64,000 nt of DNA from the NCBI RefSeq assembly GCF_036246005.1, contig NZ_CP109171.1, positions 2,282,001 to 2,346,000 on the forward strand, written 5' to 3'. The stretch comes from Streptomyces sp. NBC_01723. GTDB lineage: Bacteria > Actinomycetota > Actinomycetes > Streptomycetales > Streptomycetaceae. A model generated the notes under the pieces. The model ran no database searches, was not told the origin of the DNA, and saw nothing but the letters and a program-made list of their open reading frames with translations. The translations under genes and the position numbers were made by a program. Shown in pieces: positions 1 through 20,777 of this stretch (the stretch's first letter is position 1; the number at the start of each line of letters is the position of its first letter).

Positions 1-93
1 GTTAGGCAGGTCGACGAGCGCGCCGACGCCGGCCGTGTACATGAGGTGGCTGGGGCGTGCGGCACCCACGCGCCGATAGTAGTTGCCGCTCAT
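1..93 (-). CDS. drmB: DrmB (DUF1998 protein), N-terminal 31 codons only
   Basis: Partial gene cut by the left edge. The 31 visible codons begin with ATG at 93 and contain a segment reading RPSHLMYTAGVGALVDLPN, which resembles the conserved start of DUF1998 proteins of the DrmB type. Its ATG overlaps the TGA of the upstream drmA by four bases (ATGA), the usual sign of translational coupling. In class 1 DISARM, drmB follows drmA, and DrmA and DrmB are known to act together as the core of the restriction complex. The identification rests on the short N-terminus and on gene order; the catalytic part is outside the window. Confidence 0.8.
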   Translation of the reverse strand, partial: MSGNYYRRVGAARPSHLMYTAGVGALVDLPN

Positions 94-3959: not shown

Positions 3960-4050
3960 GGGGCGGGCCCTTTCTGCCAGGTGGTGAGCCAATGGGGTGA
4001 GGCTATCGCGGGGGTGTGACAGTGCGAGCGGCTTCAGCATGATGTCGATT

Positions 4051-4533: not shown

Positions 4534-5102
4534 ACGATCCGTACGCCATGCCCAACGGCGTGCTGCGCAACAAGCTCGGCATCACCGACCATCAACCGCT
4601 CGCGGCAGCAGAGGCGGACATCACCCGGGCGCGCCTCGTCCTGCTCGCCGAACGCCCCCTGCCCGGTGCGTACGACCTCGGTCATCTCCAGGCGTTCCAT
4701 GCCGCGGTCTTCGGGGACATCTATGCGTGGGCAGGCGAGTTACGCACCGTGAACATCGCCAAGCGCACGCCGTTCTGTCCGGCGAGAAACCTGGTGCCCT
4801 ACGCCGGAGAGGTCTTCGGTCGTCTCGCCTCCTCCGGCCATCTGCGGGATCTCCCCCGCCAGGAGTTCGCAATCCAACTGGCCGAGCTGTACGGCGACAT
4901 GAACGTCCTCCACCCGTTCCGCGAGGGCAACGGCCGCGCCCAGCGAGCGTTCCTGGCCCAGCTCAGCGCTGACGCGGGATACGACGTGAACTGGTCGGGC
5001 ATGGACGCCCAGCGCAATGAGGACGCCTCGGTGAAGAGCTTCCTCGGCGACAACAGCCTGTTGGAGCAACTGCTCGACGAACTCATCACCACCACGGGCT
5101 GA
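4530..5102 (+). CDS. Fic family toxin (probable AMPylating enzyme)
   Basis: 190 residues beginning with GTG, which overlaps the antitoxin stop (GTGA). The complete catalytic Fic motif HPFREGNGRAQR is at residues 128-139: His128 is the catalytic base, the acidic residue and GNGR loop bind metal and the phosphates. An intact motif predicts transfer of AMP (or a related moiety) from a nucleotide onto target proteins rather than Doc-type phosphorylation, where the motif is altered. Length fits small Fic toxins. The upstream gene encodes an SxxxEG-type inhibitor, so this is a class I (separate antitoxin) Fic module. It could stabilise the island or act as an abortive-infection module; the target is unknown. 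Confidence 0.88.
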   Translation: MNDPYAMPNGVLRNKLGITDHQPLAAAEADITRARLVLLAERPLPGAYDLGHLQAFHAAVFGDIYAWAGELRTVNIAKRTPFCPARNLVPYAGEVFGRLASSGHLRDLPRQEFAIQLAELYGDMNVLHPFREGNGRAQRAFLAQLSADAGYDVNWSGMDAQRNEDASVKSFLGDNSLLEQLLDELITTTG

Positions 5103-5211: not shown

Positions 5212-8200
5212 TCAGGACCCGCCCGTGAGGTTCGATGCCGCTTCGAGGCTCACCTGCACCAGGCCTTCCGCTGTGGCCAGGGCCAGGTCTCCGTCAACGC
5301 AGGCGACGTCGTTCACGCAAAGGCCCAGGGGGATCCTCAGCGTCTCGGTTCCCGTCTCGCAGTTCCAGAAGCGGACGGTTCCGTCGCCGTCACCCGTGAC
5401 CAGCATGGTTTCGCGGCCCGGGATCGGGTACGACTCCACGGCGGTCACGCCTGGATGGGCTAACGGCTCCCCTACGGCCTGGCCGGTCATGAGGTTCCAC
5501 AGCCGCACGACCCCGTCCTCACCACCCGTGGCCAGGAGAGACTGGCCGCCAAGGCCGACGAACGCGGACAGGACCCGCACGCCACCGGCGTGATCCGTCA
5601 CCACCTCACCGGCCTTCTCACCATTGCCCGGATCCCACAACCGCACCACGCCGTCCTCACCACCCGTGGCCAGGAATGACCGCCCACCGAACCCGGCGAA
5701 CGCCGATAGAGCACGCACCCCACGGGCGTGATCCGTCACCACCTCACCGGTCATCTCGCCGGTGCCCGGATCCCACAACCGCACGACCCCGTCCTCACCG
5801 CCCATGGCGAAGACGAGCCTTTCGTCATCGTCCTGGACGACTCGGACCGTGGTCACCGTGAGGACATCACCGTCATGTTCGGTCTCCAGCCCGTCGACCT
5901 GCTCGCCCTCGGCCGGGTCGAACACGCGCAGCTTCGATTCGCCGTCCACGGCGGCGATCAGGGTCTGTTCGTCCTCGCCGCTGAAGGATGTCAGCGTCCG
6001 CGTGGTCGTCACGGCGTCGTCGAACGGCACGCCTGCCGTTCGGCCGTCGTGCGGTGCCCAGATCCGTAGCGTGTGGTCGTCACCGCCGGTGGCCAGCAGT
6101 GGGTGTGTGCCAGACAGAGGCGGCACCGGCGACACAGTCCTCACCCAGTTCTCGTGGCCTGTCAGAGGCGCTGTCACCGGCTCGCCGCCGACCGGATCCC
6201 ACAGTCGTACGCTGTTGTCTTCGCCGGCGCTGACGAGCAAGGTCCGTTCACCGGCCTCGGTCTTCTCGACCAGCGTTCCCACCGCGCGGACCGGCTTGCC
6301 GTGGCCGGTGAGAGGTGCCCTGGTCTGTCTGCCGATGTCCGGGTTCCAGATCCGTATCGTCCCGTCCTCACCGCCCGATGACAGCAGCACCTGCCCTTCC
6401 CGCCCCTTGAACACCGCGACGGAGAAGACGGCTCCCTCGTGACCGGTGAGGGGATCGGTGGTCTCCTTCCCGGTGGCCGGGTCCCAGATCCGTATCGTGC
6501 CGTCGTTGCCTGCGGTGGCCAGGCGAACATGCCTATCTTGGCCGTCTAGGCCAACAAACGCCGCCACCGAGTAGACGTCGCCGTCGTGGCCGGTCTCCAC
6601 GAGCCGTTCGGTCTCCTGGTCGGTGTGCAGGTCCAGGTCCATCGCATACTCATCCAGGCCTCCCACCGCCAGTTCCTTGCCGGTCAGCGGCTCCCAGACG
6701 CGTAGCGTCCCGTCTCCGCCTCCCGTGGCCAGCAGCGTTTGCCCGTCGGCGTCTTCGAACGCCGCCACGCAGTGAACCCAGTCGTCGTGGCCGGTCAGTG
6801 GCTCCCCCACTGTCTCTCCCTTGACAGGGTCCCAGATGCGTACCGTGCCGTCCGCGCCCCCGGTGGCCAGCAGAGTCCGCCCCCTCGGGCCCGCGAACTC
6901 CGCGATCGACTGGACGGCGCCGTCGTGCGGCGTCACCGGGTCCCCCACGGTCTCCCCCCTCACCGGATCCCAGATCAGCACCGCCCCGTCGTCACTACCC
7001 GAAGCCAGGAGCACCCGCTGTGAGGCGTCCGTGAACGCCACGAGGGTCTGTACCGAGCCGGTGTGACCGGTGAGACGCAAGTGGGGTGCATGGCGCTTCA
7101 GTTGGCCCCAGGCCACGGACCAGGCCGCATCAGGGTCGGAAGATCTCCTGCCGAAGCGCTGTACGACGGTCTCCGGCGTGCAGCGAAGGCTCGCCAGCTC
7201 GCGCAGTCCTCGCCGATCCCGGGGGTTCGCTTTGGTGAGCTGCTCTCGGGCGAACAGGACTCCCGCCACCGCCGGAGGCAGCTGGAATCGGCCAAGGGCT
7301 CTGAGCATGACACTGGAGACGACCGCCGAGGGGTTCAGCCGGTCGAGCAGTTGGGGACGGTCCGCCAGGGCTTGCCATCCGTCGGGCCCGGCGAGACCGG
7401 CATGGGTGGGCAGGTGTTGCACGACATAGGGGTTGGGGCGCTGCTCCGGCCCGGTCGGGGGCGTCGCCAGGTGCTCGGTGATACGGCGGTGCCGGTCGTC
7501 GTGCGCGGAGGACGGAACCGTCCGGGTGAAGTGCTCGGAGAAGGTCCGGTGGGCCAGTCGGTACACGCTCTGCCCGGATTCCGTGTCAAGCAGGAGGTAG
7601 GGGGCCGCCGTCCATGTCAATTCTTCGATATCCGCGTCGGTGACCTTCATGTCAGGGCTGTCGGCGAGTGCTGTAGCGACGTCGGCCCACACACCCCCGG
7701 TCAGGGGCAGGCCGTGCCCCTGTGCCAGGGCCAGCGCCTCCAGCAGGGCCTGGTTGACAGGAGCCTTCTCGGCCAGCCGGTCGACGGCGCGGGCGAAGAG
7801 CCGACGGTGGTCGTCCTCAAGCAGCGGCCCGGGGTCGTCGGCGAGTCCCGGAGTGGCGATGATCTCGTGCACCGCCAGGCGTGCGTAAAGGAACTCCCGC
7901 TCAAGGCACCCGAGTGCTTTCGCCAGGTGGTCGATCTGTGCGGGCTCCACCTGGAGTTCACCCCTGCTGCGCGCTACCTCCAGGCGTCGCTGGATGTAGC
8001 TGGTCATGGCCTCCTCGTCACGGTCAACGTGAACGACCTTCCGGTTCCGCTCCCGGCCGACGCCCAGAGCGTCAGTGAGGTCCCGGTCCGCCGGCTCCGG
8101 CAGGTCGGGGCCTTCGAGTGTGGAGCCGCGCGTGCCGACGACGACCCGAACACCGGGGAGATCCGCCAGAGGGCTCAGGATCCGCTCGGCGATCGTCAGA

Positions 8201-9465
8201 GGCAGGCGGGCCTCGTCGAGTGCGTCCGCCAGGACGGTGAAAGCGGGATCGTCGGCCTCAGGAACCTGTTCCGCAACGGGGTCGTCCGTCCTGCGGAACT
8301 GCTGGATCAGCCACGAGCACTGTTCGGCGATCGGCCCCTCGGGAGGGGTGGGGAACCCGGCTGCCGCGGCGATCCGCAGCACAACCTCCCTGGGTGTCGC
8401 CCCAGTCAGGTGGAGGACCAGATCGAAGGCTTCATAGGGGCGGGGGCTGCCGAGGGGAAGGGGGTCGAGCTGCCGGTGGCGGATGAGGATGTCGGAGAGC
8501 TCACGCCGGGAGTGCACCAGGACATGCCCGAGCAAGGCGGACTTTCCCGATCCTGCCGCTCCGGTGACAACGAGCATGCCCGGTGCGGCACGGGCGAGCC
8601 AGCAGAGGATCTCATGACGTTCCTCGACGCGCCCCTGGAAGTACCAGGTCTGCTCACCGAGTTCGGCACCACTGGCCTTGGGGACGAAGTGACGCCGTTC
8701 GTCGTCGGTCAGGGACGCGATGACGGCATCGATTTCGGCGACCACATCCAGCGGTGCCTGAGTATGCGCCGCGATGGTCGACCGCGTGCGCCGCAGCACG
8801 GCACGCCCCGTATCCGTCTTCGGCGTGACAGGGCAACCTTGGAGGTTGCGGTTCAGTTCCGTGGCGAGGTCGTGCAGGTCGATGGTCTGCTGTGCGCGGA
8901 AGGTCACCGTGAGGACGGTGGTCAGCGCTCTGCGGAACGCACCGAGCGTGGTACTCCCGTCCTTGGACGTCGCCACGAGCAGAAAGTTGTGGACGTCCCC
9001 ATCCCGGTAGGCGTCCCCGGTCAGCAGTTCGACGAAGCGCCCGGAGGTGCAGGCGTCGATGATGACGATGGCCCAGCCGGCGCCGTTCCTGCCCTGCCTG
9101 GCCTTGAGGTGCCGCAGCAGAGTGGGTGGGTCGATGCCGTCTGGGGCGACAAGCTTGGGACTGTGGGCGTGTGCCAGCAACGAGGTGGGCCCTCCGTCAC
9201 TGAAGCCGTGACCGACCCAGTAGAGGACGGTGTCGCCGATGTCTCGGGGAGCGGACCACGTCGTCAGGCGCGTGGTGACGGCTTCAACCCCGCGGTCCTC
9301 CGGGGAAACCGGCCAGGGTTCGGTCTGGGAACCGAACGGCTTCAGCAACGCCTCGATGCCTTCGATCTCGGGATCCGTCTCCAGCCCGGGGAGGTGGAGA
9401 TAGACACCGATGCCGATGGGGAAGAACTGCAGAGGTCTTCCGTCAGTGCTGTCGGAGATGGTCAT
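5212..9465 (-). CDS. Caspase-like protease - STAND NTPase - WD40 repeat protein
   Basis: 1417 residues. The N-terminal ~230 residues look like a caspase-fold (C14) protease: catalytic His86 in YWVGHG and Cys139 in IIDACTSG. A P-loop NTPase follows, with Walker A TGAAGSGKS at 301-309, in the layout of STAND signalling ATPases. From about residue 795 to the end are roughly a dozen WD40 blades, recognisable by repeated GGxDGxxRxWDP segments. This order (effector, switch, sensor) is that of conflict/suicide proteins in which ligand sensing by the repeats triggers oligomerisation and protease activation. It starts 12 bases after the lipase-like gene, so the two probably form an operon. Several blades are nearly identical at DNA level, indicating recent duplication. 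The domain assignments are clear; a role in antiphage defence is inferred from context. Confidence 0.85.
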   Translation of the reverse strand: MTISDSTDGRPLQFFPIGIGVYLHLPGLETDPEIEGIEALLKPFGSQTEPWPVSPEDRGVEAVTTRLTTWSAPRDIGDTVLYWVGHGFSDGGPTSLLAHAHSPKLVAPDGIDPPTLLRHLKARQGRNGAGWAIVIIDACTSGRFVELLTGDAYRDGDVHNFLLVATSKDGSTTLGAFRRALTTVLTVTFRAQQTIDLHDLATELNRNLQGCPVTPKTDTGRAVLRRTRSTIAAHTQAPLDVVAEIDAVIASLTDDERRHFVPKASGAELGEQTWYFQGRVEERHEILCWLARAAPGMLVVTGAAGSGKSALLGHVLVHSRRELSDILIRHRQLDPLPLGSPRPYEAFDLVLHLTGATPREVVLRIAAAAGFPTPPEGPIAEQCSWLIQQFRRTDDPVAEQVPEADDPAFTVLADALDEARLPLTIAERILSPLADLPGVRVVVGTRGSTLEGPDLPEPADRDLTDALGVGRERNRKVVHVDRDEEAMTSYIQRRLEVARSRGELQVEPAQIDHLAKALGCLEREFLYARLAVHEIIATPGLADDPGPLLEDDHRRLFARAVDRLAEKAPVNQALLEALALAQGHGLPLTGGVWADVATALADSPDMKVTDADIEELTWTAAPYLLLDTESGQSVYRLAHRTFSEHFTRTVPSSAHDDRHRRITEHLATPPTGPEQRPNPYVVQHLPTHAGLAGPDGWQALADRPQLLDRLNPSAVVSSVMLRALGRFQLPPAVAGVLFAREQLTKANPRDRRGLRELASLRCTPETVVQRFGRRSSDPDAAWSVAWGQLKRHAPHLRLTGHTGSVQTLVAFTDASQRVLLASGSDDGAVLIWDPVRGETVGDPVTPHDGAVQSIAEFAGPRGRTLLATGGADGTVRIWDPVKGETVGEPLTGHDDWVHCVAAFEDADGQTLLATGGGDGTLRVWEPLTGKELAVGGLDEYAMDLDLHTDQETERLVETGHDGDVYSVAAFVGLDGQDRHVRLATAGNDGTIRIWDPATGKETTDPLTGHEGAVFSVAVFKGREGQVLLSSGGEDGTIRIWNPDIGRQTRAPLTGHGKPVRAVGTLVEKTEAGERTLLVSAGEDNSVRLWDPVGGEPVTAPLTGHENWVRTVSPVPPLSGTHPLLATGGDDHTLRIWAPHDGRTAGVPFDDAVTTTRTLTSFSGEDEQTLIAAVDGESKLRVFDPAEGEQVDGLETEHDGDVLTVTTVRVVQDDDERLVFAMGGEDGVVRLWDPGTGEMTGEVVTDHARGVRALSAFAGFGGRSFLATGGEDGVVRLWDPGNGEKAGEVVTDHAGGVRVLSAFVGLGGQSLLATGGEDGVVRLWNLMTGQAVGEPLAHPGVTAVESYPIPGRETMLVTGDGDGTVRFWNCETGTETLRIPLGLCVNDVACVDGDLALATAEGLVQVSLEAASNLTGGS
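5475..5750 (-). repeat. Two nearly identical WD40-blade direct repeats (138-bp period)
   Basis: Units 5475-5612 and 5613-5750 encode consecutive 46-residue blades (GGEDGVVRLWDPG and GGEDGVVRLWNLM cores) with long stretches of identical nucleotides, e.g. the shared GTGATCCGTCACCACC segment. A third, more diverged unit starts right after. High DNA identity between neighbouring blades implies recent unequal exchange. Confidence 0.75.
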
Positions 9466-9477
9466 GACGCACTGCGC

Positions 9478-11007
9478 TCAGTCGTCGTCGGAGTCGAGCG
9501 CCAGGACAAGTTGGGTGACGGGGGCGTTGCCGCCGGTATCGGCCCTGACCCGGTAGAGGCCCGGCCCGGGAAGGGTGATCGAGGCACCGATCTCACCGTC
9601 GTGCCAGCCGAGCCGACCGGTGGCAACACGCAGGCCGGTCTCGGCGTCCTGCACAGTGCAGGTGATCCCGGCATACGTGTCCAAGACGGAACCCGGTCCG
9701 GGCCTCAGGCGCAGCAACCAGGGCCGGCCCGCCTCGACGCAGTCCGGGACGTCCAGACCGATGTCCCCCTCACCCAACGCGGGGCCGAGGTCCTGATCGT
9801 GCTCGGTGAGCACCGCGCGGATATAGGCGATGGCGACGCTGTCCTTTGCCAGGGCACCGTGCTGCAGCGGGAGTGGGGTCACGCCCATGGTCGGGCCGAA
9901 GGAAGCGGCGTCCCGGTAGACCGTGCCATCCCCGGCCCGGTCCCTGCGAAGCGGGATGCCGTTGCGGTCACGGGCCAGGCCCCCGTCACCGTTGCGCTCG
10001 AACGAGAGGTACTGCTCGTGCACCACACCACTGTCGAGACGCAGACTCTGCACGGTCGGCTGCGCGACGCCGACGACAGCGCGGTGCCCCGGCAGCGCAG
10101 GTCCCTTCTCCCGCAGGTGCTGCTGGAACTCCTGCGCCTCGCGGGCGAGTTCGGCATCTCCTCCCAGGACTGCCACGTCGGCCGGGGTGAGCCGGTGGAC
10201 ATCGAGACCCGCGTCGACGCAGCGGTAATCTGGCAGCAGGTCGTGTACACCGGGCAGTGTCGCGCACAGGGCCTGCATTCGGCGCCGCAGCCGGGCGGGC
10301 AGCCGGCCGGAGTGGTCACCATTGAGGATGACGGCCGCCATGACCGAACCCAGGAACGGGGTACCGAGGGTGACCACGGCCCTGGTTTCAGGGGTCAGGT
10401 CGCTGCCCTGGGAGGCGGCGTGGGCGAAGGCGGCCCGGGTGACCAGTCCGCCCATGGAATGGGCGACGAACACCAAACGCGCCTCGCGCTCGTCCGGATG
10501 CGAGCAACGTGCCCGAGCATGCTCCTCGCTGGCGCGCCACCGCGCCAGGTGATCGTGAGCGGCTTCCGCCAGCCGCGCTCCATTGACGGCGACGGGGAGC
10601 CGCCAGTCGTACGCGAACTCAAGTACGGCCTTGGGGCGGGCGACAGCACGGACGGCGTCAAGAAGATCGCCGTACGGCTCGAAGCCCTTCAGGAACGGCG
10701 CCACCGTCGGGACGCGCAGCAACTCGGTGGCTTCGATCCGACCGTACCGGCCGGATCGTTCGTCGTCGTCCAGGTGCAGCGGGCGCATCCCGTCCTCGTG
10801 CCGCCATGCCTCGACCACCCACCGAGGATCACGCAGTCCCCACACCAACCGCCCGGTCGTGGTGTCGCGCAAGGCGCTGCCCATGATCCCCGGCACCACG
10901 ATCACCGCATCATGCGTGGCATCCCGGATCACGGGTGGTGTCGGCGTCCAGGGCGCCACGCCCGCGCCAAAGGACATACCGGCTCGCTCGGTCCCCCCAT
11001 ACGTCAT
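9478..11007 (-). CDS. Alpha/beta hydrolase, LCAT/PGAP1-like lipase
   Basis: About 509 residues from ATG 11007. The N-terminus has VVPGIMGSALRD, typical of lecithin:cholesterol acyltransferase-like lipases (oxyanion region), followed by the nucleophile elbow FVAHSMGG and a late QHGALAKD that could supply the His. The last ~80 residues look like a beta-sandwich. No signal peptide is evident, so it is probably cytoplasmic. Starts further upstream (to 11343) would add over 100 residues that read like shadow sequence and overlap the ATPase remnant; an alternative ATG at 10977 has a GGGGGGA upstream. The next gene, 12 bases downstream, is the caspase-like/STAND/WD40 protein; a lipase effector controlled by that protease is plausible but unproven. 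Confidence 0.75.
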   Translation of the reverse strand: MTYGGTERAGMSFGAGVAPWTPTPPVIRDATHDAVIVVPGIMGSALRDTTTGRLVWGLRDPRWVVEAWRHEDGMRPLHLDDDERSGRYGRIEATELLRVPTVAPFLKGFEPYGDLLDAVRAVARPKAVLEFAYDWRLPVAVNGARLAEAAHDHLARWRASEEHARARCSHPDEREARLVFVAHSMGGLVTRAAFAHAASQGSDLTPETRAVVTLGTPFLGSVMAAVILNGDHSGRLPARLRRRMQALCATLPGVHDLLPDYRCVDAGLDVHRLTPADVAVLGGDAELAREAQEFQQHLREKGPALPGHRAVVGVAQPTVQSLRLDSGVVHEQYLSFERNGDGGLARDRNGIPLRRDRAGDGTVYRDAASFGPTMGVTPLPLQHGALAKDSVAIAYIRAVLTEHDQDLGPALGEGDIGLDVPDCVEAGRPWLLRLRPGPGSVLDTYAGITCTVQDAETGLRVATGRLGWHDGEIGASITLPGPGLYRVRADTGGNAPVTQLVLALDSDDD

Positions 11008-11143
11008 GCGGGAACGATATCCGGCATGCCTCACGCGGAGGCGGGAAAGCCGAGGACCGTAGGCGTGGCGACACTGTAGCGCGTTGCCCAATGTCGCGCT
11101 CATTGAAGGTAGTTGCCCTTGTTCGAAAGGCTCCACCGAGGCG

Positions 11144-11400
11144 TCAGCAGTGACTGGGCGCCCGATCCACCTCGGCCCACAGCGTCTTGGTGCAGGGGCC
11201 CTGCGGTCCCGTGCACCAGCGGTCGGCGAGGGCTTCCACAAGTAGCAGCCCGCACCCCGACTCGGCCTCCGTCGCTGGCAGTTCGGGCAGTCTCTGGGTG
11301 TAGGCGGGAAGCCCGCCCGGCCGGGTGTCGGTGACCTCGACACGCACCGACTCCGGCGTCAGCGTCAGGCACAGCGCGAAGTCCCGTCCCGACGCGCAGC
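11144..11400 (-). pseudogene. 5'-truncated HATPase (anti-sigma-like ATP-binding protein) remnant
   Basis: The reading frame ending at TGA 11144 encodes ~85 residues resembling the C-terminal half of the small RsbW-like ATP-binding proteins abundant in Streptomyces: SVRVEVTDTRPGG, then ESGCGLLLVEALADRWC (G2 box region) and TLWAEVD. The N-terminal half, with the N box, is missing. The homology breaks off just at the 3' end of the recombinase gene (stop at 11404), so the gene was probably cut by insertion or rearrangement there. Confidence 0.65.
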
Positions 11401-11403
11401 CGA

Positions 11404-12249
11404 TCAGGCGATGCGGGCGCGACACTGTTGACAGCCTGTCACCCCTCGCTCACCATCGTGCCTCTTGCGGTTGGGGTCTGCGCCCGGCAACAACCCGATC
11501 ACCTTGTGGATTTGATCGTCGGCCACTGCCGCATACCCTGCGGTCGTCGCCGGTGAAGCGTGCCGCATCAGGCGCTGGGTGAGCAGGAGATCACGCCCCG
11601 AGGCGCGATAGACGGCTGTCCCGAAGCGGTGCCTCAGCTGGTGGTAGCGCATACGGATGCCCTCCTTGGCCGCGATGGCAGCGACCGTGCGCGAAACTCG
11701 CTCAGGGGTGACTCCGCCCCATAGGCGCCCCTCGGCCGTGAGGTCTAGCTTCTGAGTGACAACGGGAGGGACCGGGACGATATCGGTACGTCCACCCTTG
11801 CCTTGCACCCGCAGGACGACCTCGCCGTCCTGGAGAACCGATATGTCCTCACGTCTGAGCTTGGCTGTCTCATGCGCTCGCAGACCACAGAAGGCCCCCA
11901 AGAGCACCCACGCGCGATGATGGCCCCGTGCGACTGAAGTAATGCGGGCCAGGTCCCCCTCCGGCAGAGGGTTCGGCGTTGAACGCGGTGCCGGCGGCTT
12001 TCGAATGCCTGTGACAAGATCTACGCCTCTCCATCTACCAAAAGCCTGTAAGTGGTTGAGGTAGGTCCGCCGGGACCACGGCTTGAGCGAGCGCACCGCG
12101 AAGTAGGCCATCACATGATCGACTGTTAAGTCCTCAACCCGAACGAGGGCCGCCTTGGCGATGGCGCGAATACAGCGGGCTCTGGCACGGATGGTGTTGA
12201 TCGAGTATCCGTCCACATGCTGTGCAGCAATGAAGGCATCGAGGACCAT
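11404..12249 (-). CDS. Tyrosine recombinase (XerD-like), candidate invertase for drmMI
   Basis: 281 residues with a SAM-like N-terminal core-binding domain (to ~95) and a complete catalytic set: GLRAHE (Arg I), VQGKGGR (Lys), HQLRHRFGT (His-x-x-Arg), LMRHAS (His) and the nucleophile in TAGYAAV. It is short and lacks the arm-binding N-terminus of large phage integrases, like XerC/D and the recombinases that invert hsdS or pglX genes. The start ATG 12249 has no obvious ribosome site. It is transcribed away from the silent drmMI cassette, whose inverted repeat begins only ~140 bases upstream. This position is the main reason to link it to inversion of drmMI; the alternative is a relic of the element that brought the caspase-like and Fic genes. 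Confidence 0.85.
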   Translation of the reverse strand: MVLDAFIAAQHVDGYSINTIRARARCIRAIAKAALVRVEDLTVDHVMAYFAVRSLKPWSRRTYLNHLQAFGRWRGVDLVTGIRKPPAPRSTPNPLPEGDLARITSVARGHHRAWVLLGAFCGLRAHETAKLRREDISVLQDGEVVLRVQGKGGRTDIVPVPPVVTQKLDLTAEGRLWGGVTPERVSRTVAAIAAKEGIRMRYHQLRHRFGTAVYRASGRDLLLTQRLMRHASPATTAGYAAVADDQIHKVIGLLPGADPNRKRHDGERGVTGCQQCRARIA

Positions 12250-12363: not shown

Positions 12364-12387
12364 GCGGGAAGTCCTTTCAGGGGGCCA

Positions 12388-12632
12388 ACGTTCTGGGGAA
12401 GGGCTTCATCCTGTCGCCCCAGCAGGCCGAGGAGCTCATCCAGCGCGACCCGCGCAACCGCGACGTCCTCTTCCCCTACCTCAACGGCGAGGACCTCAAC
12501 TCCCGTCCGGACTGCTCGGCGAGCCGCTGGGTGATCAACTTCCATGACTGGCCCGAGGAGCGGGCCCGTGAATACCCTGAAGTATTCGCCATCGTGGAAC
12601 GCGACGTGAAGCCCGAGCGACTCAAGAACAAC
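12388..12632 (+). repeat. Inverted repeat, left copy (in silent cassette)
   Basis: Positions 12399-12632 match the reverse complement of 13944-14177 over 234 bases with one difference (T at 12545, the matching C being in drmMI). Weaker identity (three further mismatches) continues to 12388. Length is a multiple of three and the reading frames coincide. Confidence 0.95.
12570..12587. other. Candidate crossover core, left: GAATAC-CCTGAA-GTATTC
   Basis: A perfect 6-bp inverted repeat around a 6-bp spacer, extendable to 8 bp with one mismatch (GTGAATAC/GTATTCGC). This is the geometry of XerC/D or Cre-type core sites. It is AT-rich inside GC-rich coding DNA and is encoded with codons unusual for this genome (GAA, CCT, GAA, GTA). 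An identical copy is in the other repeat arm. Confidence 0.5.
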
Positions 12633-13268
12633 CGCAAGGTCTATCGCGATTACTGGTGGCAGTATGCAGAGAAGCGTCCGGCCATGCTTAAGGCGATCAA
12701 GGGACTGGACAGTGTCTTGGCGGTGGCACTCGTGTCCCGAACCGTGATGCCAGTTTCGGTACCGACAGGACAGGTCTTCTCACACATGCTTGGGGTGTTC
12801 GCAGCTTCGGATTCTGCCCACTTGGCGTTGCTGGACAGCGGTATCCACTACGCGTGGGCAATCGCACGGGCGTCCAGCCTCAAGGGAGACCTTCGCTATA
12901 CGCCGTCAGATGTTTACGAGACAATGCCGTTGCCTACCGGCAGCACGACCATGGCCGTTGCAGGTGCCGAGCTTGATCAAATCCGGCGATCTGTCATGCT
13001 CCAACGCGGCCTTGGTCTGACCAAGCTCTACAACCTCGTTCACGACCCGAGCATCATCGACGCAGATATCCATGCTCTGCGTGCAGCACATGTGGAGGTC
13101 GACCATGCCGTGATGCAGGCCTACGACTGGCAAGACCTGCACTTCCGGCACGACTTCACAACGACTCGAAAGAGCACGCGCTTCAGCCTACCCCAGCCGG
13201 TCCAGACTGAAGTGATCGACCGATTGCTCGAACTGAACCACGCCCAGCACGGGGGAAAAGCCGACTTC

Positions 13269-13295
13269 CTGCTCTTTTGAAGATCAGAAGAGCAG
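13269..13295. terminator. Palindrome formed by the two convergent cassette ends
   Basis: Both cassettes end with CTGCTCTTyTGA (Leu-Leu-Phe-stop) and are separated by only three bases, making the hairpin CTGCTCTT ... AAGAGCAG. It may act as a bidirectional terminator that works in either orientation of the invertible segment. Confidence 0.5.
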
Positions 13296-16200
13296 CCCCT
13301 CGCGTACTGCTGAGGGCGACTGAAAATGTCGCTGGTGATTAAGCTCCAGGAGTCGGTCCAAGATCTCGGTAAGAGTACGCATCGGGAACGTGTAGCGCAC
13401 GCCTTGACGAGTTTCATGGAACCCATGTTCCAAGTTCAGGTCGCTCCACCCGTAGGCTGCCGACACAGCCTCGTCCACAGCTCGATGGCAATCTCGTACA
13501 GCTGCAATCTCGGCATCTCCGACAGAAGGATCATGGACGAGGTTGTAGAGCTTGGTCAGACCAAGGCTGCGCTCCGCCATGATCTCAGCTCGCAGCTGAT
13601 CAAGGCGGGCACCCGCATCTGCCATGCCTGATGAGTAGGTAGGACGTGGAAGCGTCTCGAACACGTCTGACGGTGAGTAGTTGAGGTCAGCCTTCATTGT
13701 GGACGAGTTACGCCATGCCCAACATGTATGGAACGAACTACTGAGGAACGCGAGATCCCCGTCGGAAGCGGACGCAAAAACGGCCAACTTGTGCGAAAGG
13801 ACCTGTCGGCTTGGGACTCGGGCCGGCATCACGGTTCGGGACACGAGTGCTACCACCAAGACACGTTCGCGGCCGGAGATGGCTCGGTACAAGTCCATGG
13901 CGGGCCGGGTGAAGCGCCACCAGATCTCACGACGCTGTCGGTTGTTGTTCTTGAGTCGCTCGGGCTTCACGTCGCGTTCCACGATGGCGAATACTTCAGG
14001 GTATTCACGGGCCCGCTCCTCGGGCCAGTCGTGGAAGTTGATCACCCAGCGGCTCGCCGAGCAGTCCGGACGGGAGTTGAGGTCCTCGCCGTTGAGGTAG
14101 GGGAAGAGGACGTCGCGGTTGCGCGGGTCGCGCTGGATGAGCTCCTCGGCCTGCTGGGGCGACAGGATGAAGCCCTTGCCTAGGACGTAGGAGCCGATAT
14201 AGGCGCCTGGTCGCCCCGAGGCGTCCCCAGATACCAGTCGATACGGCCGCCCCTTCACCCGTGACTGTGGATCCAGCGACGTCGTGATGCCCCGAACCTT
14301 CTCGCCGTCCAGCACTCTGTCCGCCTCGTTCGCGAGCGGCGGCACCGAAGTCCAGACGGCGCAGTACTCCAAGACCGCCGACTTTGAAGGCCAGGGTGCG
14401 CTCTTCACCGCCCGCCGGATGCTGACCTTCCTCTTCTCCTCCAACTGGTCCAGGCCGACCTCACGGGTGTCACCTTGAGCCAGAGTGTTGGTAGCGATGA
14501 GCCCCGTCTGGCCATGCTTGTTGAGGAGCTGGTGAGCGCGGAGTTCAAAGTAGGCCACCAAGTCGGCGCTACCACGCTTCTTGTCGGCGAGGTAGTCGAC
14601 CATGTACTCGCGGTACGCCTCGCCCAGGGCGCCCGTGAGTTTCTGGCCGCCGAGGAACGGCGGGTTGCCGATGATCGCGTCGAAGCCGCCATGTTCCGTG
14701 AAGACTTCAGGGAAGGTCAGGGGCCAGTGCAGAGGTCGTCGGGCCAGCCCTCCGCTCGGGGCTTCGGAGGAAAGCCACTCTTCAGCGGTGGCATGGGCTT
14801 CCCGCACTTCATCCGAGTCTTCCGAAACCTCCTCGTCGATGATCCGTTCCACGATGAGCTCAGCCTGCGGGAAGAGATCCTTGATGCGCTTGCCGCCGTC
14901 CTCCACGTACCACTCGACGCGTCCCGAGGCACAGGTAGCCAGTGCCGCACCGGCGAGAAGGTCGCCGACAAGCCGTAGCCGTGCGGAGTGGCGGTTCACC
15001 TCGGAGAGCTTCTCCCGTTTACGCTGCAGCGCGACCAGGTCCACACCCCTGACCGAAGTGATCGCCAAGCGAAGGTCCTTGAGTTCCTTGGCCTTCTTCT
15101 TCAGTGCTTCCGCGCGCTCGTCGGCGTGCTTGGTGAGCAGGCTGCGCTTCTCGGTCGGTTCCAGGTGTTCCGCTCTGATCTGCTCCATGTTGTGCACACC
15201 CAGCAGCGAGTCCCCCGCCACCAACCGGTCGTCCAGGAAAGTGAACGGACGCGTCGGGTCCATGGAGACCAACCACAGCGAGAGCTTGGCCATCTCCACG
15301 GCCATGGGGTTGATGTCCACCCCGTACAGGCAGTGCTCGATCACCTGGCGCCGGGCCTCGATCACTACCGGGTCGGACTCCGCGTCTGCTGCAGTGACCG
15401 CGTCAACAGCGCGCCCCGCCCGGTACTTGACCGCCTCCTCGCGGCCCTCCCGCTCCCACGCCTCGATCAGCCGATCCCCCAAGTACCGGCAGGCGGCCAC
15501 CAGGAACGCCGCCGAGCCCATCGCGATGTCCGCGACCTTCAGCTCACGGATCCGCTCAGCTGTCTTCGGCACCCAGGCATCCCTGTCCGCCGTCTGGAGC
15601 GGACCCGGCTCGTACACCAGCGGCTCCAGCGCGTGCAGCACGACCTCCTCCGCCAACCGGCGCGGGGTGTAGTGCGTACCCGTGTTCTTCCGCAGCGAGG
15701 ACTCCGTCACGAACAGCGCGCCCGCCGGGATGACCACCGGCAGGTCCCGCAGGTCCCTCCGAATCACACCGAAGAAGGGCAGCAGACGTTCCGTCAGGGC
15801 CGCGTCGCGGCAGGCTGCGAGCAGCAGACGCCTCGCCTCCGTCGCGGCCTCCGCCTTCGCCGGGGCCAGCAGCTTCTCCAGACGCACCGCGCTCGCCGGC
15901 GGCTTGGGGTCCTTCCACGTCTCGTAGATCTTCTTCGCGAGGGTCTTCACGTCCCTCGACGTGGCCGCCAGGGACTCCAACTCCCTCAGCGGTACCTCGT
16001 GTTCCACGCCGTCCGGGCCGATGAGGCCGACCATCGTCTCGACGGCGCGCCGGGCGTCGTACGAGAGCAGGCCCTCGTACACGTAGCCGATCTCCTCCAC
16101 GCCCAGCGCGCGGAAGCTGAGCGTGCGGGTCTCCCTCTGCCTGCCCGTGCCGACACGGACCTCCTGCACGGACTGGAGCATGTGCAGCACCGTGCGGTCG

Positions 16201-17462
16201 TCGATGGGGAGAAGGGGGAAGCTGTTCTCCAGCCAGGGGTACTTGTCCGGATCGAAGATGGAGCCGTCGTACGCCGGGAGTTCGAGCTCAGGGTGCAGCA
16301 CTCCGCCGTGCACGGCGTGGAACAGCGCGATCAGGCGGTGCCAGGCGGCGGTCGTGTACTCCAGGGAGGCCTCGCCCTCGGCGTCGGCGCGGGACTTCAG
16401 CTCGGCGCGCAGGAAGCGGGCGGAGTAGGAGCGGGCGTAGACCTCGTTGTCGGCGGGCAGCAGTCCGCGTTCCTCGGCGAAGAGGAGGAAGACGACGCGC
16501 ATCATGACCGCGACCGCGCCCCGGTAGACCTCGCTCGCCTCGACGCCGCTCGCGCGCAGGCCGGGGGTACCGCGTTCCATGGCGCTGGCGTCGGCGCGGC
16601 CGATGGCGTCCACCAGTTGCTCGACGGCCTGGCGGACCTGGATGCCGAGGGCCTCGGTGACCTCGTCGCCCGCGTCGAGGCTCTTCCTCAGCAGACCGAC
16701 CAGAGTCTCGGACTCGTCGTACTCGAAGAAGCGACGGCGGCGCAGCAGGGAGACGAAGGCGCGGACGACCGTGCGTTCGGCGGCCTCGTTCCAGCCGATG
16801 GCGTCGAAGACGGCCGTGGTCGTGACGCCGCCGACCGGGGCCCAGACCAGGCACCACCAGCGGCCGTCGGTGACCAGGCCGAGGGGTACGTCGTGGTGGC
16901 GCAGGAGTCGGGCGAGGCGGTCGGCGGGGCCGGCCGCCCAGTCGTCGCCCCAGCTCGGGCGGGCCGTTGGGGCGGTGCCGCTGGGGATGGTCATGCCCAG
17001 CATTCGTACGCGCTTGGCAGCAGACCCCGTGTCCGGTTCGGCGGCGAGTTCCGTACCAGGCTCGGTTAGCGCGAAGTCGGCGCGGACACGGGCGTTGTGC
17101 TCGTGGACGTCGAGAGTGAGGCGGTCCAGGGCGAGGTCGTCGTCCTGGCCCTCGCGCAGAACAAGCGCATCGCCCCACTCCAGCAGCGAGCGCAGGATGT
17201 AGCCGGTCCACTCGTCGCGGCCGGCGTTGGTGTCGGCCTGCCAGTCGGCGTGGCGGGCGCGCAGCCGGGTGCGCTGGTCCTTGTCGAGGGCGTCGAGCTG
17301 GGGCCAGGCCTGGAGCAGGACGGGCATGGTGAGGAAAGGGCCGGAGACCTCGGTGAGGTCCAGCCATTCCTGGTGCTGGCCCCGGCCGTCCATGGCCTTG
17401 GCCCTGGCGGCGGCGACTCCGCGGGAGGAGCCACGGAAGGAAGAGGCGGCGGAGCGGCTCAT
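13284..17462 (-). CDS. drmMI: DrmMI, DISARM N6-adenine methyltransferase (Eco57I-like), with invertible 3' end
   Basis: 1392 residues. Methylates host DNA so that DISARM spares it. Motif X-like GTHYTPRRLAEEVV is near residue 600, motif I-like DIAMGSAAFL near 644, and the catalytic motif IV NPPFLGG near 931. The C-terminal part after ~1095 is the target-recognition region: residues ~1096-1173 are encoded by the inverted repeat and the last 219 residues are the variable cassette. The ATG at 17462 overlaps the drmD stop (ATGA). Downstream, where drmA would be expected, the inverted silent cassette and a recombinase gene follow. The cassette part uses fewer GC-ending codons than the body, suggesting a separate origin. 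Recombination across the repeats would give a 1388-residue variant. Confidence 0.92.
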   Translation of the reverse strand: MSRSAASSFRGSSRGVAAARAKAMDGRGQHQEWLDLTEVSGPFLTMPVLLQAWPQLDALDKDQRTRLRARHADWQADTNAGRDEWTGYILRSLLEWGDALVLREGQDDDLALDRLTLDVHEHNARVRADFALTEPGTELAAEPDTGSAAKRVRMLGMTIPSGTAPTARPSWGDDWAAGPADRLARLLRHHDVPLGLVTDGRWWCLVWAPVGGVTTTAVFDAIGWNEAAERTVVRAFVSLLRRRRFFEYDESETLVGLLRKSLDAGDEVTEALGIQVRQAVEQLVDAIGRADASAMERGTPGLRASGVEASEVYRGAVAVMMRVVFLLFAEERGLLPADNEVYARSYSARFLRAELKSRADAEGEASLEYTTAAWHRLIALFHAVHGGVLHPELELPAYDGSIFDPDKYPWLENSFPLLPIDDRTVLHMLQSVQEVRVGTGRQRETRTLSFRALGVEEIGYVYEGLLSYDARRAVETMVGLIGPDGVEHEVPLRELESLAATSRDVKTLAKKIYETWKDPKPPASAVRLEKLLAPAKAEAATEARRLLLAACRDAALTERLLPFFGVIRRDLRDLPVVIPAGALFVTESSLRKNTGTHYTPRRLAEEVVLHALEPLVYEPGPLQTADRDAWVPKTAERIRELKVADIAMGSAAFLVAACRYLGDRLIEAWEREGREEAVKYRAGRAVDAVTAADAESDPVVIEARRQVIEHCLYGVDINPMAVEMAKLSLWLVSMDPTRPFTFLDDRLVAGDSLLGVHNMEQIRAEHLEPTEKRSLLTKHADERAEALKKKAKELKDLRLAITSVRGVDLVALQRKREKLSEVNRHSARLRLVGDLLAGAALATCASGRVEWYVEDGGKRIKDLFPQAELIVERIIDEEVSEDSDEVREAHATAEEWLSSEAPSGGLARRPLHWPLTFPEVFTEHGGFDAIIGNPPFLGGQKLTGALGEAYREYMVDYLADKKRGSADLVAYFELRAHQLLNKHGQTGLIATNTLAQGDTREVGLDQLEEKRKVSIRRAVKSAPWPSKSAVLEYCAVWTSVPPLANEADRVLDGEKVRGITTSLDPQSRVKGRPYRLVSGDASGRPGAYIGSYVLGKGFILSPQQAEELIQRDPRNRDVLFPYLNGEDLNSRPDCSASRWVINFHDWPEERAREYPEVFAIVERDVKPERLKNNNRQRREIWWRFTRPAMDLYRAISGRERVLVVALVSRTVMPARVPSRQVLSHKLAVFASASDGDLAFLSSSFHTCWAWRNSSTMKADLNYSPSDVFETLPRPTYSSGMADAGARLDQLRAEIMAERSLGLTKLYNLVHDPSVGDAEIAAVRDCHRAVDEAVSAAYGWSDLNLEHGFHETRQGVRYTFPMRTLTEILDRLLELNHQRHFQSPSAVREGLLF
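13944..14188 (-). repeat. Inverted repeat, right copy (inside drmMI)
   Basis: Reverse complement of 12388-12632; 233 of 234 positions identical over 13944-14177, then three mismatches in the next eleven. The repeat covers codons ~1096-1173 of drmMI and ends exactly where the two protein versions diverge. Confidence 0.95.
13989..14006. other. Candidate crossover core, right: GAATAC-TTCAGG-GTATTC
   Basis: Identical (reverse complement) to the core at 12570-12587. In drmMI it encodes Glu-Tyr-Pro-Glu-Val-Phe. Exchange between the two cores would invert the 1401 bases between them. Confidence 0.5.
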
Positions 17463-20400
17463 CGGCTGGCTTCCTTTGCGGGGATCACGACGACGACGGC
17501 GACGGGGAAGAGGTGGGAGCGCGGCTCGTAGTAGCGGGCCGCGATGGCGGCGAGTTCGCGCTCGCGTTCGGCGGTGAGGCCTTCGATGCGAGCCTGCCAG
17601 CGGTCCCGGTCCTCGCGGTACTGGCGCTGTTCGGCGGTGGTGACCTCGCGGGTGCCGAAGAGAGCGATCTGCTCGTTGTCGTCGTCGCCCTCCTCCTTGA
17701 GCTTGGCGCGCAGGGTGGCCTCGAAGCGGTCCAGGGTGGCCCGGATGCGGTTCTCCTCCTCGGTGCGGCGGGCGGCCAGCGCCGATTCGAGGGAGGTGCC
17801 GCGTTCACGGGCGCGGGCGGTGAGGGAGTCGTGGAGGGGCTTCTCCAGCCGGGACCAGGCGTCGGTGAAGGCGTGCCGCAGGTCGGGGGCGGCCTCGGCG
17901 CCGTCGGCGAGCGCGCGGGCGAGGACTGCGCCCTGGGTGCGTACGGACTCCCAGCGGCGGAAGCGGCCGGTGTCGCCGAACCAGCCGCCCGCGTAAAGGA
18001 TCTCCTCGTGAAGGCGGGTGCCATCGTTGCCGACGAGGACGTAACGGGCGTAGGCGGAGACGAGGGCCGTCTCGACGGCGGGGTCGTCGGTAACGACGGC
18101 GGTCACGCGGTGCAGACCGACGGTGTCGGCGTTCCACACGGCGGCCGTGAGCAGGCGGGTGGAGAGGGCGACCAGCGGGTGCTTGAGGTGGGCGAGCACC
18201 ACGTCGTCGCGGCCGAGGGCAGCGACCTGCGGGGTGAATGTGACGGGGCGCTGCTCGGCTGGGCGAAGTTTGTGGGCGAGGCCGCGGGTGGCCCGTTCCC
18301 AGGTGCCGGAGAGCGGCGGGACGGTCCAGAGGCCTTTCATGTCCTCGTTGTAGTGCGGAGTCAGGGGCTGCTGGTGGTCCAGGGTGAGGGCGGTGTCGAC
18401 GACCCGTTTGATGTTGGCTGGGGTGAGGCCAAGGGCGTCCACGGTCTCCTGGTACTGCTCGGCGAGGCGCTTGGCCTGCGCAGTGACGTTCTGCTCGGCG
18501 GCGACGGTGCCGCCAGTGCGGCGACCGGCGATCTGCTTGGGCTTGGCGTTGTCGATGTCGACGGGGGTGGTGTCGCCGGTCATACGGCGCTGTACGGCGT
18601 CGGCGATGACGGCGTTGACGGAGCCCAGGTCGGCTTCAGTGCGGGCGATCTTGCGGGCGATGCGGGAGAGGAACTCCAGGTCGGCCTCGTAGGATCCGGC
18701 GGCGGCGTTCTCCCAGCCGGCGCCGATGAAGTGAGTGATCTCCGGGTCGGTCTTCTGGCCCCAGCGGTCGATGCGGCCGATGCGCTGTTCGAGCTTGTTG
18801 GGGTTGAAGGGGATGTCGTAGTTGAACAGGCGGTGGCAGTGGTTCTGGAGGTCGATGCCCTCGCTGGCGGCGTCGGTGGCCAGCAGGATGCGGACCTTGC
18901 CCTCGTCGGTGGCGGGATGAGCCTGGAAGCCGAGGCGGATGTCCTCACGGTCGTCTGTGCTGAGTCCGCCGTGGAGGACGGCGACGCGGCCGCCGTCGGT
19001 GAGTTCCTGCTGCTGGAGCAGGTTGAGCAGCCATTTCTGGGTGTCGCGGTACTCGGTGAAGATCACGACGCGTTCGTTGGTCCAGAACTGGCCATCGGGG
19101 CGGCAGATGGCCTTCAGCTCGCGGATGAGCGCGTCGGCCTTGGAGTCGGCGGCGGCCTCGTGGGTCAGTGCCCAGCGCTCCATCTGCTGGAGAAGGGCGA
19201 GTTCCTCGCCGTCCTCCTGCGGGGTGAGGCTGGTTGAGCGCGTGAGGGCGTCGTCCTCTGCCTCCGCCAGGCCCAGGTCGTCGAGTTCGGCGACGAGGTC
19301 GGAAAAGTCCTCCAGCCAATCGGGGACTTCGGCAGCGGCCGAGCGGGAACGGGTCCGGGTGTCGTCGAGGTGGGAGAGGTAGACCTGGACGGTGTGCAGG
19401 AAGGCGGCCGGGGAGGAGAACAGCCGCTTCTTCAGCAGGAGAGTGACCAGGTCGGCGGCGCGGCGGCCGCCGCGGGCCTTTGGGGTCATCCGCTTGCGGC
19501 GAAGGTCGGAGAAGCTGCTGAGCACGCCGTGGATCTCGCGTTCGGTGTCGGTGTACTCGACGGGGAGTTCGCGGGTGCGGCGGGTGCGGAAACGGGGGGA
19601 GCCGTCGGGGTTGGTGATGGTGGACTTCAGGCGTCGGACGACGGTCTCCTTGCGGGCCTGCTCGTCGGGGTCGACACCACGGGCGAACTTCTGATTGTCG
19701 ATGAGCTCCAGCAGCGCGGTGTACGACTCGGGGTAGCCGTTGTGCGGGGTGGCGGAGAGGAAGAGGCGGTGCTCGAAGTGCGGGACGAGCCGCCGGATCA
19801 GCTTGGTCTGCTGGGAGTCGACGGCGTACACCTGCTTGGGCGCGGCGGGTGCCACGTGGTGGGCCTCGTCGAGGACTAGCAGGTCGAAGAAGCGGCGGTC
19901 GGTTCCGTCCTCCCTCGTCTCCTGGCGGGTCGGGACGACCTCGTCGAGGAGGCGCTGCGCCTTGGTGCCGCGCAGCCAGGGCAGGGACACGATGGTGAGC
20001 GGGTGGACGCGGAACGGGTTGGCGGCGGTGCCGTGGGTGCGGCGCAGCCGGGCGCAGCGCTCGGCGTCGACGATCGTGAAGTCCAGGCCGAACTTCTCTG
20101 CGAGTTCGTCGCGCCACTTCAGGGTGAGGCCCGCCGGACAGATCACCATGACGCGGTGGGCACGCCCTCGCAGCAGCAGCTCCTGGACGACGAGGCCAGC
20201 CTCGATGGTCTTGCCGAGGCCGACGTCATCGGCGAGGAGCAGGTTGACACGGGGGGCGCCGACCGCGCGGGAGACGGGTTCGAGCTGGTAGGGCTCGACG
20301 GCGACGCCGGAGCGGAACGGCGCCTGGAGGGTCTTGACGTCGGCGGAGGCGACGGCCGACCAGCGGACGGCGTCGAGGAACGCGGCGAGACGGGACGGCG

Positions 20401-20677
20401 GGTCGTACTGTCCGGTCGACGCGTCGGGCAGGGAGCCGCGGTCGAGGACACGGCGGCCGGGCTCGACTTCCCAGATAACGGAGAGGGTGTCCCCGAAGCG
20501 GCCGTCGGCGACGGACTGGAGGTGGACGAGGGTGGCGGCGCGGCCGTCGGAGGGCGGGGCGGGTTCCACCCTGCTGACGACCCAGCTCTGACCCCGTACT
20601 TCGACGAGCTCACCGTCCCCGGGTAGTCGCTCCTGAGGAGCCGCCGCACCTCGCTCCCGGTGAGCCGTCTGCGTCAT
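17459..20677 (-). CDS. drmD: DrmD, DISARM SNF2-like helicase
   Basis: About 1072 residues. SNF2-family ATPase found in class 1 DISARM. Motifs: Walker A ADDVGLGKTIEAG near 146, DEAH box LLVLDEAHHVAP near 266, motif III LSATPHNG, and the C-terminal helicase lobe ATDAASEGIDLQ near 605 with QRIGRIDRWGQ near 635. A coiled-coil-like C-terminus follows. ATG 20677 is preferred because GGGGAGG lies about ten bases upstream; the frame opens at 20719. Its TGA overlaps the drmMI ATG. The 111-base gap to the upstream kinase holds the palindrome GTGAACTAAGTTCAC, so drmD-drmMI probably has its own promoter. Confidence 0.92.
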   Translation of the reverse strand: MTQTAHRERGAAAPQERLPGDGELVEVRGQSWVVSRVEPAPPSDGRAATLVHLQSVADGRFGDTLSVIWEVEPGRRVLDRGSLPDASTGQYDPPSRLAAFLDAVRWSAVASADVKTLQAPFRSGVAVEPYQLEPVSRAVGAPRVNLLLADDVGLGKTIEAGLVVQELLLRGRAHRVMVICPAGLTLKWRDELAEKFGLDFTIVDAERCARLRRTHGTAANPFRVHPLTIVSLPWLRGTKAQRLLDEVVPTRQETREDGTDRRFFDLLVLDEAHHVAPAAPKQVYAVDSQQTKLIRRLVPHFEHRLFLSATPHNGYPESYTALLELIDNQKFARGVDPDEQARKETVVRRLKSTITNPDGSPRFRTRRTRELPVEYTDTEREIHGVLSSFSDLRRKRMTPKARGGRRAADLVTLLLKKRLFSSPAAFLHTVQVYLSHLDDTRTRSRSAAAEVPDWLEDFSDLVAELDDLGLAEAEDDALTRSTSLTPQEDGEELALLQQMERWALTHEAAADSKADALIRELKAICRPDGQFWTNERVVIFTEYRDTQKWLLNLLQQQELTDGGRVAVLHGGLSTDDREDIRLGFQAHPATDEGKVRILLATDAASEGIDLQNHCHRLFNYDIPFNPNKLEQRIGRIDRWGQKTDPEITHFIGAGWENAAAGSYEADLEFLSRIARKIARTEADLGSVNAVIADAVQRRMTGDTTPVDIDNAKPKQIAGRRTGGTVAAEQNVTAQAKRLAEQYQETVDALGLTPANIKRVVDTALTLDHQQPLTPHYNEDMKGLWTVPPLSGTWERATRGLAHKLRPAEQRPVTFTPQVAALGRDDVVLAHLKHPLVALSTRLLTAAVWNADTVGLHRVTAVVTDDPAVETALVSAYARYVLVGNDGTRLHEEILYAGGWFGDTGRFRRWESVRTQGAVLARALADGAEAAPDLRHAFTDAWSRLEKPLHDSLTARARERGTSLESALAARRTEEENRIRATLDRFEATLRAKLKEEGDDDNEQIALFGTREVTTAEQRQYREDRDRWQARIEGLTAERERELAAIAARYYEPRSHLFPVAVVVVIPAKEASR

Positions 20678-20777
20678 CGGTGTTCCGCCTCCCCTTGGCC
20701 TGGCATACGGCCAGAACACTACGCAATACAGGGCCTTCGCCCCGCCTCCTGCAGTAAGCTAGCACCGACGGATTATT

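Follow-up and report, generated by a model that had tools for sequence, protein, structure and literature searches.

A putative inverting target-recognition switch in the DISARM methylase gene drmMI of Streptomyces

In a stretch of 64,000 nucleotides from Streptomyces sp. NBC_01723 (contig NZ_CP109171.1, positions 2,282,001 to 2,346,000; hereafter the window), we identified a DISARM (defence island system associated with restriction-modification) operon whose methylase gene, drmMI, has two alternative target-recognition domain (TRD) ends, arranged head to head between inverted repeats of 234 bp. A tyrosine recombinase gene adjoins the repeats, and in our judgement it is likely that its product inverts the enclosed segment, so that the same methylase body would acquire a different predicted recognition motif. 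The evidence for the anatomy of the locus, its reading frames, the identity of the exchanged domain and the association of recombinase and cassette is strong.

Repeats, cassettes and the exchanged domain

The elements of the segment are as follows (IR1 denotes the long inverted repeat).

13284-17462, minus strand: drmMI, 1392 aa
14178-17462, minus strand: constant N-terminal part of drmMI with an Eco57I/MmeI-type methylase domain (PADLOC DrmMI, E=0; Pfam Eco57I and MmeI_Mtase)
13944-14177, minus strand: active arm of IR1, DrmMI residues about 1096-1173
13284-13943, minus strand: active variable cassette TRD-A, DrmMI residues 1174-1392
12633-13280, plus strand: silent variable cassette TRD-B, without a methylase part, within the open frame 12390-13280
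12399-12632, plus strand: silent arm of IR1, 234 bp with one mismatch against its mirror arm, in the DrmMI reading frame
11404-12249, minus strand: tyrosine recombinase gene, predicted inverting enzyme, 281 aa, divergent from the silent cassette (Pfam Phage_integrase, E=1e-10)

Recomputation recovered the near-identical 234-bp inverted repeat around two convergent, homologous cassettes that an earlier note on this DNA had described: the arms agree at 233/234 positions, the sole mismatch being at 12545. The outer ends given in that note, 12388 and 14188, did not stand, as they lie about 10 bp outside the clean arms at 12399-12632 and 13944-14177; extension of the arms to 12385-12632 and 13944-14191 yields 5 mismatches in 248. 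Among the four inverted repeats listed between 8000 and 20000, IR1 is the only long one with nearly 100% identity.

The stop codons of the two convergent cassettes are separated by 3 bp, and the proteins that they encode share 54% identity over the 212 alignment columns following IR1. The silent cassette is open from 12390 to 13280 on the plus strand and, because in-frame stops lie directly upstream, lacks an N-terminus of its own, as had been claimed. When the segment was inverted in silico, an open DrmMI of 1388 aa resulted, in which the first changed residue, 1174, corresponds to the first codon past IR1. Both arms are thus in frame and end where the proteins diverge, in agreement with the earlier description.

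The exchanged C-terminal ends, noted previously only as different, can be assigned to a domain. Because both cassettes match Pfam MmeI_TRD (E=5e-11 in DrmMI and E=1e-12 in the silent frame 12390-13280) and both predicted folds match MmeI best, the exchanged part of DrmMI is, judging from domain match and modelled structure, a TRD. The AlphaFold models of the active and silent ends have a mean predicted local distance difference test score (pLDDT) of 88 and 90, respectively, and Foldseek matches them to MmeI (5hr4) with E values of 5e-13 and 1e-11 and TMq of 0.67 and 0.66.

We infer that TRD-A and TRD-B read different DNA motifs. With the roles of MmeI residues at individual base pairs taken from the relevant part of PMC4833311, residue 1174, the first variable one, aligns with MmeI Ala723 (base pair 1), the active end having N here and the silent end R; according to the same part of that source, Arg or Lys at MmeI position 723 accompanies C:G at base pair 1. 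At the equivalent of MmeI Arg810 (base pair 4), TRD-A likewise has N and TRD-B has R. MmeI Glu806 and Arg808 align with K1257 and D1259 of the active end, and K and D are also present in the silent end; by analogy, this pair predicts G:C at base pair 6 for both TRDs. MmeI residues 751, 773 and 774 are not firmly mapped, two alignments placing them one residue apart.

The recombinase and its company across genomes

As the earlier note had it, a tyrosine recombinase gene stands next to the repeats. R124, K151, H203xxR206, H230 and Y239 are invariant in three orthologues, which thus retain the R-K-HxxR-H-Y set that we take to be catalytic. The closest solved relatives are Gp33 (5vfz) and a XerC-like recombinase. 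The recombinase has a single match in its own genome. At E <= 1e-50, it was found in 3/394 family, 1/394 class and 3/382 genus genomes and in 1/120 relatives; these four sets overlap and jointly comprise five genomes with the gene (G000, G616, G460, G110 and G225). Six further loci were recovered from species-genome contigs, one of which (L052) is that of G616, giving 10 distinct genomes overall. A repeated genus sample and the relatives set contained no additional genome with the recombinase, and plasmids contained no match (E <= 1e-40). In phages, all relatives are less than 60% identical, the matches listed being at 30-35%, and viral contigs hold two relatives at 37-39%. A palindromic sequence, GAATAC-N6-GTATTC, apparent in the window and considered as a site for the recombinase, was rejected because other species do not keep it.

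A close homolog of the recombinase adjoins the drmMI repeat in 10/10 genomes for which the DNA was read, its gene and the silent cassette being divergent in every case where coordinates were compared. Both cassettes are visible in 8 of these 10, one of them with a truncated active copy. For the other two, the assembly of Streptomyces aidingensis has 1,205 N exactly between two identical arms of 321 bp (L054:8351-9555), and the BV286 contig begins inside the repeat. Both frames are open, with stops 3-13 bp apart, in 7/8 loci read (two of the eight being the near-identical window and NBRC 110468); in the eighth, that of S. paludis, the open reading frames are intact and end 9 bp apart.

The comparison of related drmMI loci that the earlier note had called for revealed the same repeat layout, with other TRDs, in other species, the repeats ranging from 246 to 549 bp: 266 bp at 99.6% in Streptomyces sp. 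P3, 246 bp at 98.8% in S. calidiresistens, 347 bp at 98.6% in S. physcomitrii, 321 bp at 100% in S. aidingensis, 350 bp at 91% in Actinacidiphila DG2A-62 and 549 bp at 82%, including an exact run of 253 bp, in SID3212. TRD pairs differ between species.

Most drmMI loci have neither element. Among 20 loci with wide flanks (tblastn, E <= 1e-8), recombinase and inverted cassette occur together in 3 and neither occurs in 17, with the limits that L035, counted among the 17, carries an additional full-length drmMI in inverted orientation and another (L041) stops 738 bp past drmMI. In a set of 29 Streptomyces loci with flanks of 1.5 kb, which overlaps partly with these 20, 27 have no inverted TRD; the remaining L015 and L017 belong to two of the three recombinase-bearing genomes. 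None of the 22 loci from a class-wide search has an inverted TRD, 3/22 holding no TRD at all. Five of the 35 drmMI genomes (G034, G080, G099, G202 and G262) were given no locus and stand outside the cassette counts. In the protein collection, 15 equal contig sizes were found between the 55 closest of 120 recombinases listed and the 119 TRD proteins listed with a contig size, which suggests, without proving, that the two lie on the same contig.

A different arrangement was observed in G122, where two full-length, convergent and diverged drmMI genes (L035:6685-10821, plus strand, and 18790-14648, minus strand) lie about 3.8 kb apart and are 48-52% identical to that of the window; the 19 kb read there held no recombinase match at E <= 1e-8.

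Candidate crossover points and competing explanations

Candidate crossover points lie within IR1 and within the TRD itself, at a second, short inverted repeat (IR2).

12575-12615, plus strand: candidate crossover core in IR1, counterpart of the sole 41 bp common to the S. paludis arms; holds GAAGTATTC
12726-12751, plus strand: silent arm of IR2, 26 bp exact, inside the TRD at ALVSRTVMP
13825-13850, minus strand: active arm of IR2, 26 bp exact

The core 12575-12615 was transferred from S. paludis by codon number and may be the recombination site. At GAAGTATTC in the eight recombinase-bearing loci, glutamate is encoded by GAA in 7/7 (background 0.30) and valine by GTA or GTT in 7/8 (background 0.18).

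The TRD can be divided at VLVVA-VSRT into a proximal module, about 30 aa long, and a distal one. Proteins P0019 and P0101 have a common proximal and different distal modules, and so do the standalone proteins P0275 and P0300. The exact run common to the two arms ends at or just before GTAGC in 5/7 loci (L033, L053, L056, L057 and L061); in the window, 26 exact bp follow from the GTAGC point onward, and in Streptomyces sp. P3 any run there is shorter than 14. At the joint, valine is encoded by GTA in 12/13 arms printed, and GTA makes up 9.5% of valine codons in three drmMI genes. The second-site pattern matched 2/17 control loci, neither with GTA, which makes for a thin control, and it missed one L056 arm. 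The exchanged modules begin beside the base-pair-1 residue and, within one or two residues, the base-pair-3 residue (MmeI numbering). With less confidence than for IR1, these features point to VLVVA-VSRT/IR2 as a second crossover point that would swap the distal module only, a possibility that goes beyond the earlier note; homologous exchange may instead account for them. Two modules may bring up to four TRD alleles within reach. More speculatively, and on balance doubtful, a recombinase family dedicated to DISARM could run a four-state shuffler, in which inversion at IR1 swaps the whole TRD and the second site (CTGGTGGTAGC, IR2) the distal module, so that half-motifs recombine into four self-marks within one clone. 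Elsewhere in the TRDs, a third inverted match, 12994-13048/13528-13582, includes 31 bp exact (LGLTKLYNLV) in a region conserved across aligned TRDs; it could reflect simple conservation or another exchange point.

There is good evidence from protein comparisons that related strains carry like TRDs in active and standalone positions. In P0261 (Streptomyces sp. NPDC087568), the start, comprising the flank and the beginning of the repeat, resembles the silent side of the window (RLV[A/S]NRGKSFQGAN), its first 30 aa being 90% identical to that side and 57% to the active side; the next 60 aa, in the repeat, are identical, and the active TRD of the window follows with 97% over 223 aa. Against the silent TRD of the window, the TRD of P0261 is 37-73% alike per 30-aa block and 27% at the tail. 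P0269 (DT2A-34) and the standalone P0277 (NPDC087851) share a flank and differ in the TRD, and the P0269 TRD is 91% identical to that of P0027, the active protein of NPDC087851. Identity between P0019 and P0101 (FT1) is 99.5% over residues 251-1050 and falls to 55% in the TRD. For Streptomyces sp. P3 and P0019 the corresponding values are 98.5% versus 48%, and the silent TRD of P3 is 90% identical to the active TRD of P0019. Twelve printed pairs, from a list restricted to those with at least one TRD match of 62% or more, have N-terminal parts 92-98% identical and active TRDs 49-69% identical in 11 cases and 79% in one. Each of the distal TRD types alpha and beta is found in both active and standalone proteins. 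No clean reciprocal swap was apparent in the table of N-terminal part and TRD pairs, from which P0263 (SID3212), a truncated active copy, was dropped. The TRD swap set covers DrmMI records of more than 1100 aa and proteins with the TRD-cutting motif, which 27 active and 22 standalone proteins lack. These swaps between relatives suggest natural switching.

Several observations count against inversion by the recombinase. The genome of NBRC 110468 (L052/G616), 99.94% identical over 20,843 bp, is colinear with the window and in the same orientation. A fused alternative DrmMI was sought in the protein collection, where the best hit to the region among the 120 listed is at 72%; the collection is clustered at 90%, so that an inverted DrmMI could hide in the P0008 cluster. 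P0261, P0269 and P0300 are known from protein records, their silent position being deduced from flanks, and the swaps could stem from homologous recombination. The recombinase itself resembles phage integrases (about 30-35% identity), and the arms of S. paludis match over only 41 bp at the junction, with the silent side beginning abruptly. Codon usage speaks for the switch, within limits. In the eight recombinase-bearing loci, identical codons at conserved residues reach 0.61-0.72 in IR1, 0.50-0.53 in residues 900-1080 and 0.36-0.40 after IR1, and the methylase core (residues 600-800) has 0.63-0.66, as high as IR1, so that the raised value in IR1 counts only relative to its near neighbours. 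In 16 control loci, codon identity is 0.36-0.41 in IR1 and 0.71-0.74 in residues 600-800.

Some of these points would fit ordinary homologous recombination between the repeats, swapping TRDs over evolutionary time, with the recombinase as a passenger and without fast switching. Repeats of 230-350 bp are enough for RecA-type exchange, the two near-identical genomes share one orientation, and the TRD mosaics are jointed inside the TRD. However, the close recombinase lies next to the drmMI repeat in every one of the 10 genomes read and is divergent from the silent cassette wherever compared, and near-perfect arms with open silent frames in several species also speak against this explanation, which we regard as unlikely. 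We give far less weight still to a silent cassette expressed as a free TRD protein that acts in trans with DrmMI, in the manner of a specificity half-subunit: many cassettes have records of their own as standalone proteins, about 290-350 aa long and in some cases with common starts (MATGD..., MPDDKA...), but the window cassette has in-frame stops directly upstream, and like TRDs in active and standalone positions require recombination anyway. Equally improbable is a decaying, functionless duplicate of the drmMI 3' end held alike by gene conversion. The short junction repeat of S. paludis would suit such decay, whereas the silent frames are open in 8/8 loci read, TRD pairs differ between species and the recombinase accompanies the cassette.

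Under the preferred reading of a recombinase-driven switch, the recombinase would invert the segment at a site in IR1 and thereby join the constant methylase body to either TRD-A or TRD-B, each of which would direct methylation of a different predicted motif; inversion at IR2 would swap the distal module alone. A clonal population would then contain cells that differ in their DISARM self-mark, and a phage marked in one state would meet cells of the other state with unprotected sites. The earlier proposal that DISARM self-marking, and therefore its targets, switch is retained for the self-mark and not for the targets: a TRD switch would alter the mark, and with it the range of phage DNA, marked beforehand, that escapes attack, but not a list of targets.

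In current understanding, DISARM leaves methylated self DNA alone. If inversion indeed changes the methylase motif, the self-mark becomes a heritable and reversible variable, and a clone would split into groups able to block each other's phage progeny. This raises the question of how a cell survives the switch before its sites of the new motif have been methylated. The locus also offers naturally exchanged pairs of MmeI-type TRDs and half-TRDs for decoding specificity.

The DISARM operon and related systems

The remaining DISARM genes flank drmMI.

17459-20719, minus strand: drmD, SNF2-type helicase, upstream of and overlapping drmMI (PADLOC DrmD, E=0)
90-4040, minus strand: drmA, helicase, downstream and in the same direction as drmMI (PADLOC DrmA, E=2e-298)
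L065:8187-10094, minus strand: drmB (DUF1998), past drmA and almost wholly outside the window (DrmB, E=7e-73)
L065:7429-8190, minus strand: drmC, phospholipase-D nuclease, past drmA and almost wholly outside the window (DrmC, E=1e-113)

Because DrmB and DrmC are present, the locus is read as DISARM, and with drmA, drmB, drmC, drmD and drmMI all found by homology, the operon is a complete class 1 system, which we take to be defined by the SNF2 helicase drmD and the adenine methylase drmMI. The PADLOC models for all five genes bear out the earlier identification of DISARM and DrmMI. An assignment of DrmMI to PglX of bacteriophage exclusion (BREX) systems was rejected, the best score being 46.9 bits versus the NCBI PglX family cut-off of 500. 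Genome G277, which is listed under the species of the window, lacks any drmMI match at E <= 1e-50; within that species, DISARM is thus probably an accessory system.

The stretch 5212-11343 (minus strand), located between recombinase and drmA, encodes an LCAT-like lipase and a WD40 protein that weakly matches a caspase; in Streptomyces sp. P3, unlike in the window, drmA directly follows the recombinase. Within the DISARM region, 4183-5102 on the opposite (plus) strand encodes a Phd-like antitoxin, whose match falls just short of the family cut-off, paired with a Fic/VbhT-like adenylyltransferase. A UvrD/GajB-like helicase beside DISARM (23476-25629, plus strand) shares 85% identity with its counterparts near the P3, S. 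physcomitrii and SID3212 loci, versus only about 62% for drmA in the same loci, and 46% with that in L044; to the eye, its first 100 aa resemble RelE, reminiscent of ArmD of ARMADA. A GmrSD-type protein (25693-28278, minus strand) has a C-terminal match to an alkyltransferase DNA-binding domain just below the cut-off, and GmrSD homologs occur near six more drmMI loci (L033, L035, L042 and L049-L051).

In line with the earlier note, which knew of no such description, we found no report of phase-variable DISARM among the open-licence PubMed Central papers listed, including passages of PMC9142583, PMC7365801, PMC12707154, PMC10273834, PMC12458937, PMC8138268 and PMC5903667, most subscription papers and preprints being outside this scope. 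The closest parallel is provided by inverting type I hsdS loci (SpnD39III and relatives), in which, as described in part of PMC7394358, the specificity gene itself contains inverted repeats and is accompanied by alternative TRDs and a locus-borne recombinase, inversion changing the methylated motif. The drmMI locus likewise has inverted repeats in the specificity part, alternative TRDs and a local recombinase gene, but specificity resides in the C-terminus of the single-chain DrmMI of DISARM, whereas hsdS systems use a separate HsdS subunit. In BREX of Lacticaseibacillus rhamnosus, full and partial pglX are separated by a site-specific integrase in a phage-defence operon (part of PMC7513527), in strain GG they lie on opposite strands (part of PMC6256098), and part of PMC11341690 describes phase variation as common in pglX. 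Similarly, drmMI has full and partial methylase copies with a recombinase gene in a phage-defence operon, although the defence system and the methylase branch are different and DrmMI scores far below the NCBI PglX cut-offs.

Like MmeI (type IIL), DrmMI has ends of the same Pfam TRD family, with MmeI as best structural match and several specificity residues in the exchanged part; unlike for MmeI, no restriction by DrmMI itself is implied, and identity in the structural alignment is 18%. To our knowledge, which includes no search on MmeI alone, no inversion is known in MmeI. As to the recombinase, the likeness is to Brujita-type phage tyrosine integrases, since Gp33, its closest solved relative, is presumably the Brujita integrase, an enzyme reportedly arm-less and directionless; in contrast to those, the DISARM-locus recombinase lies inside a defence operon and shares the low identity to phage integrases given above. 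To conclude, comparison at the sequence level indicates that this locus is likely an inverting TRD switch in DISARM, a new setting for the known inversion-type switching of specificity.

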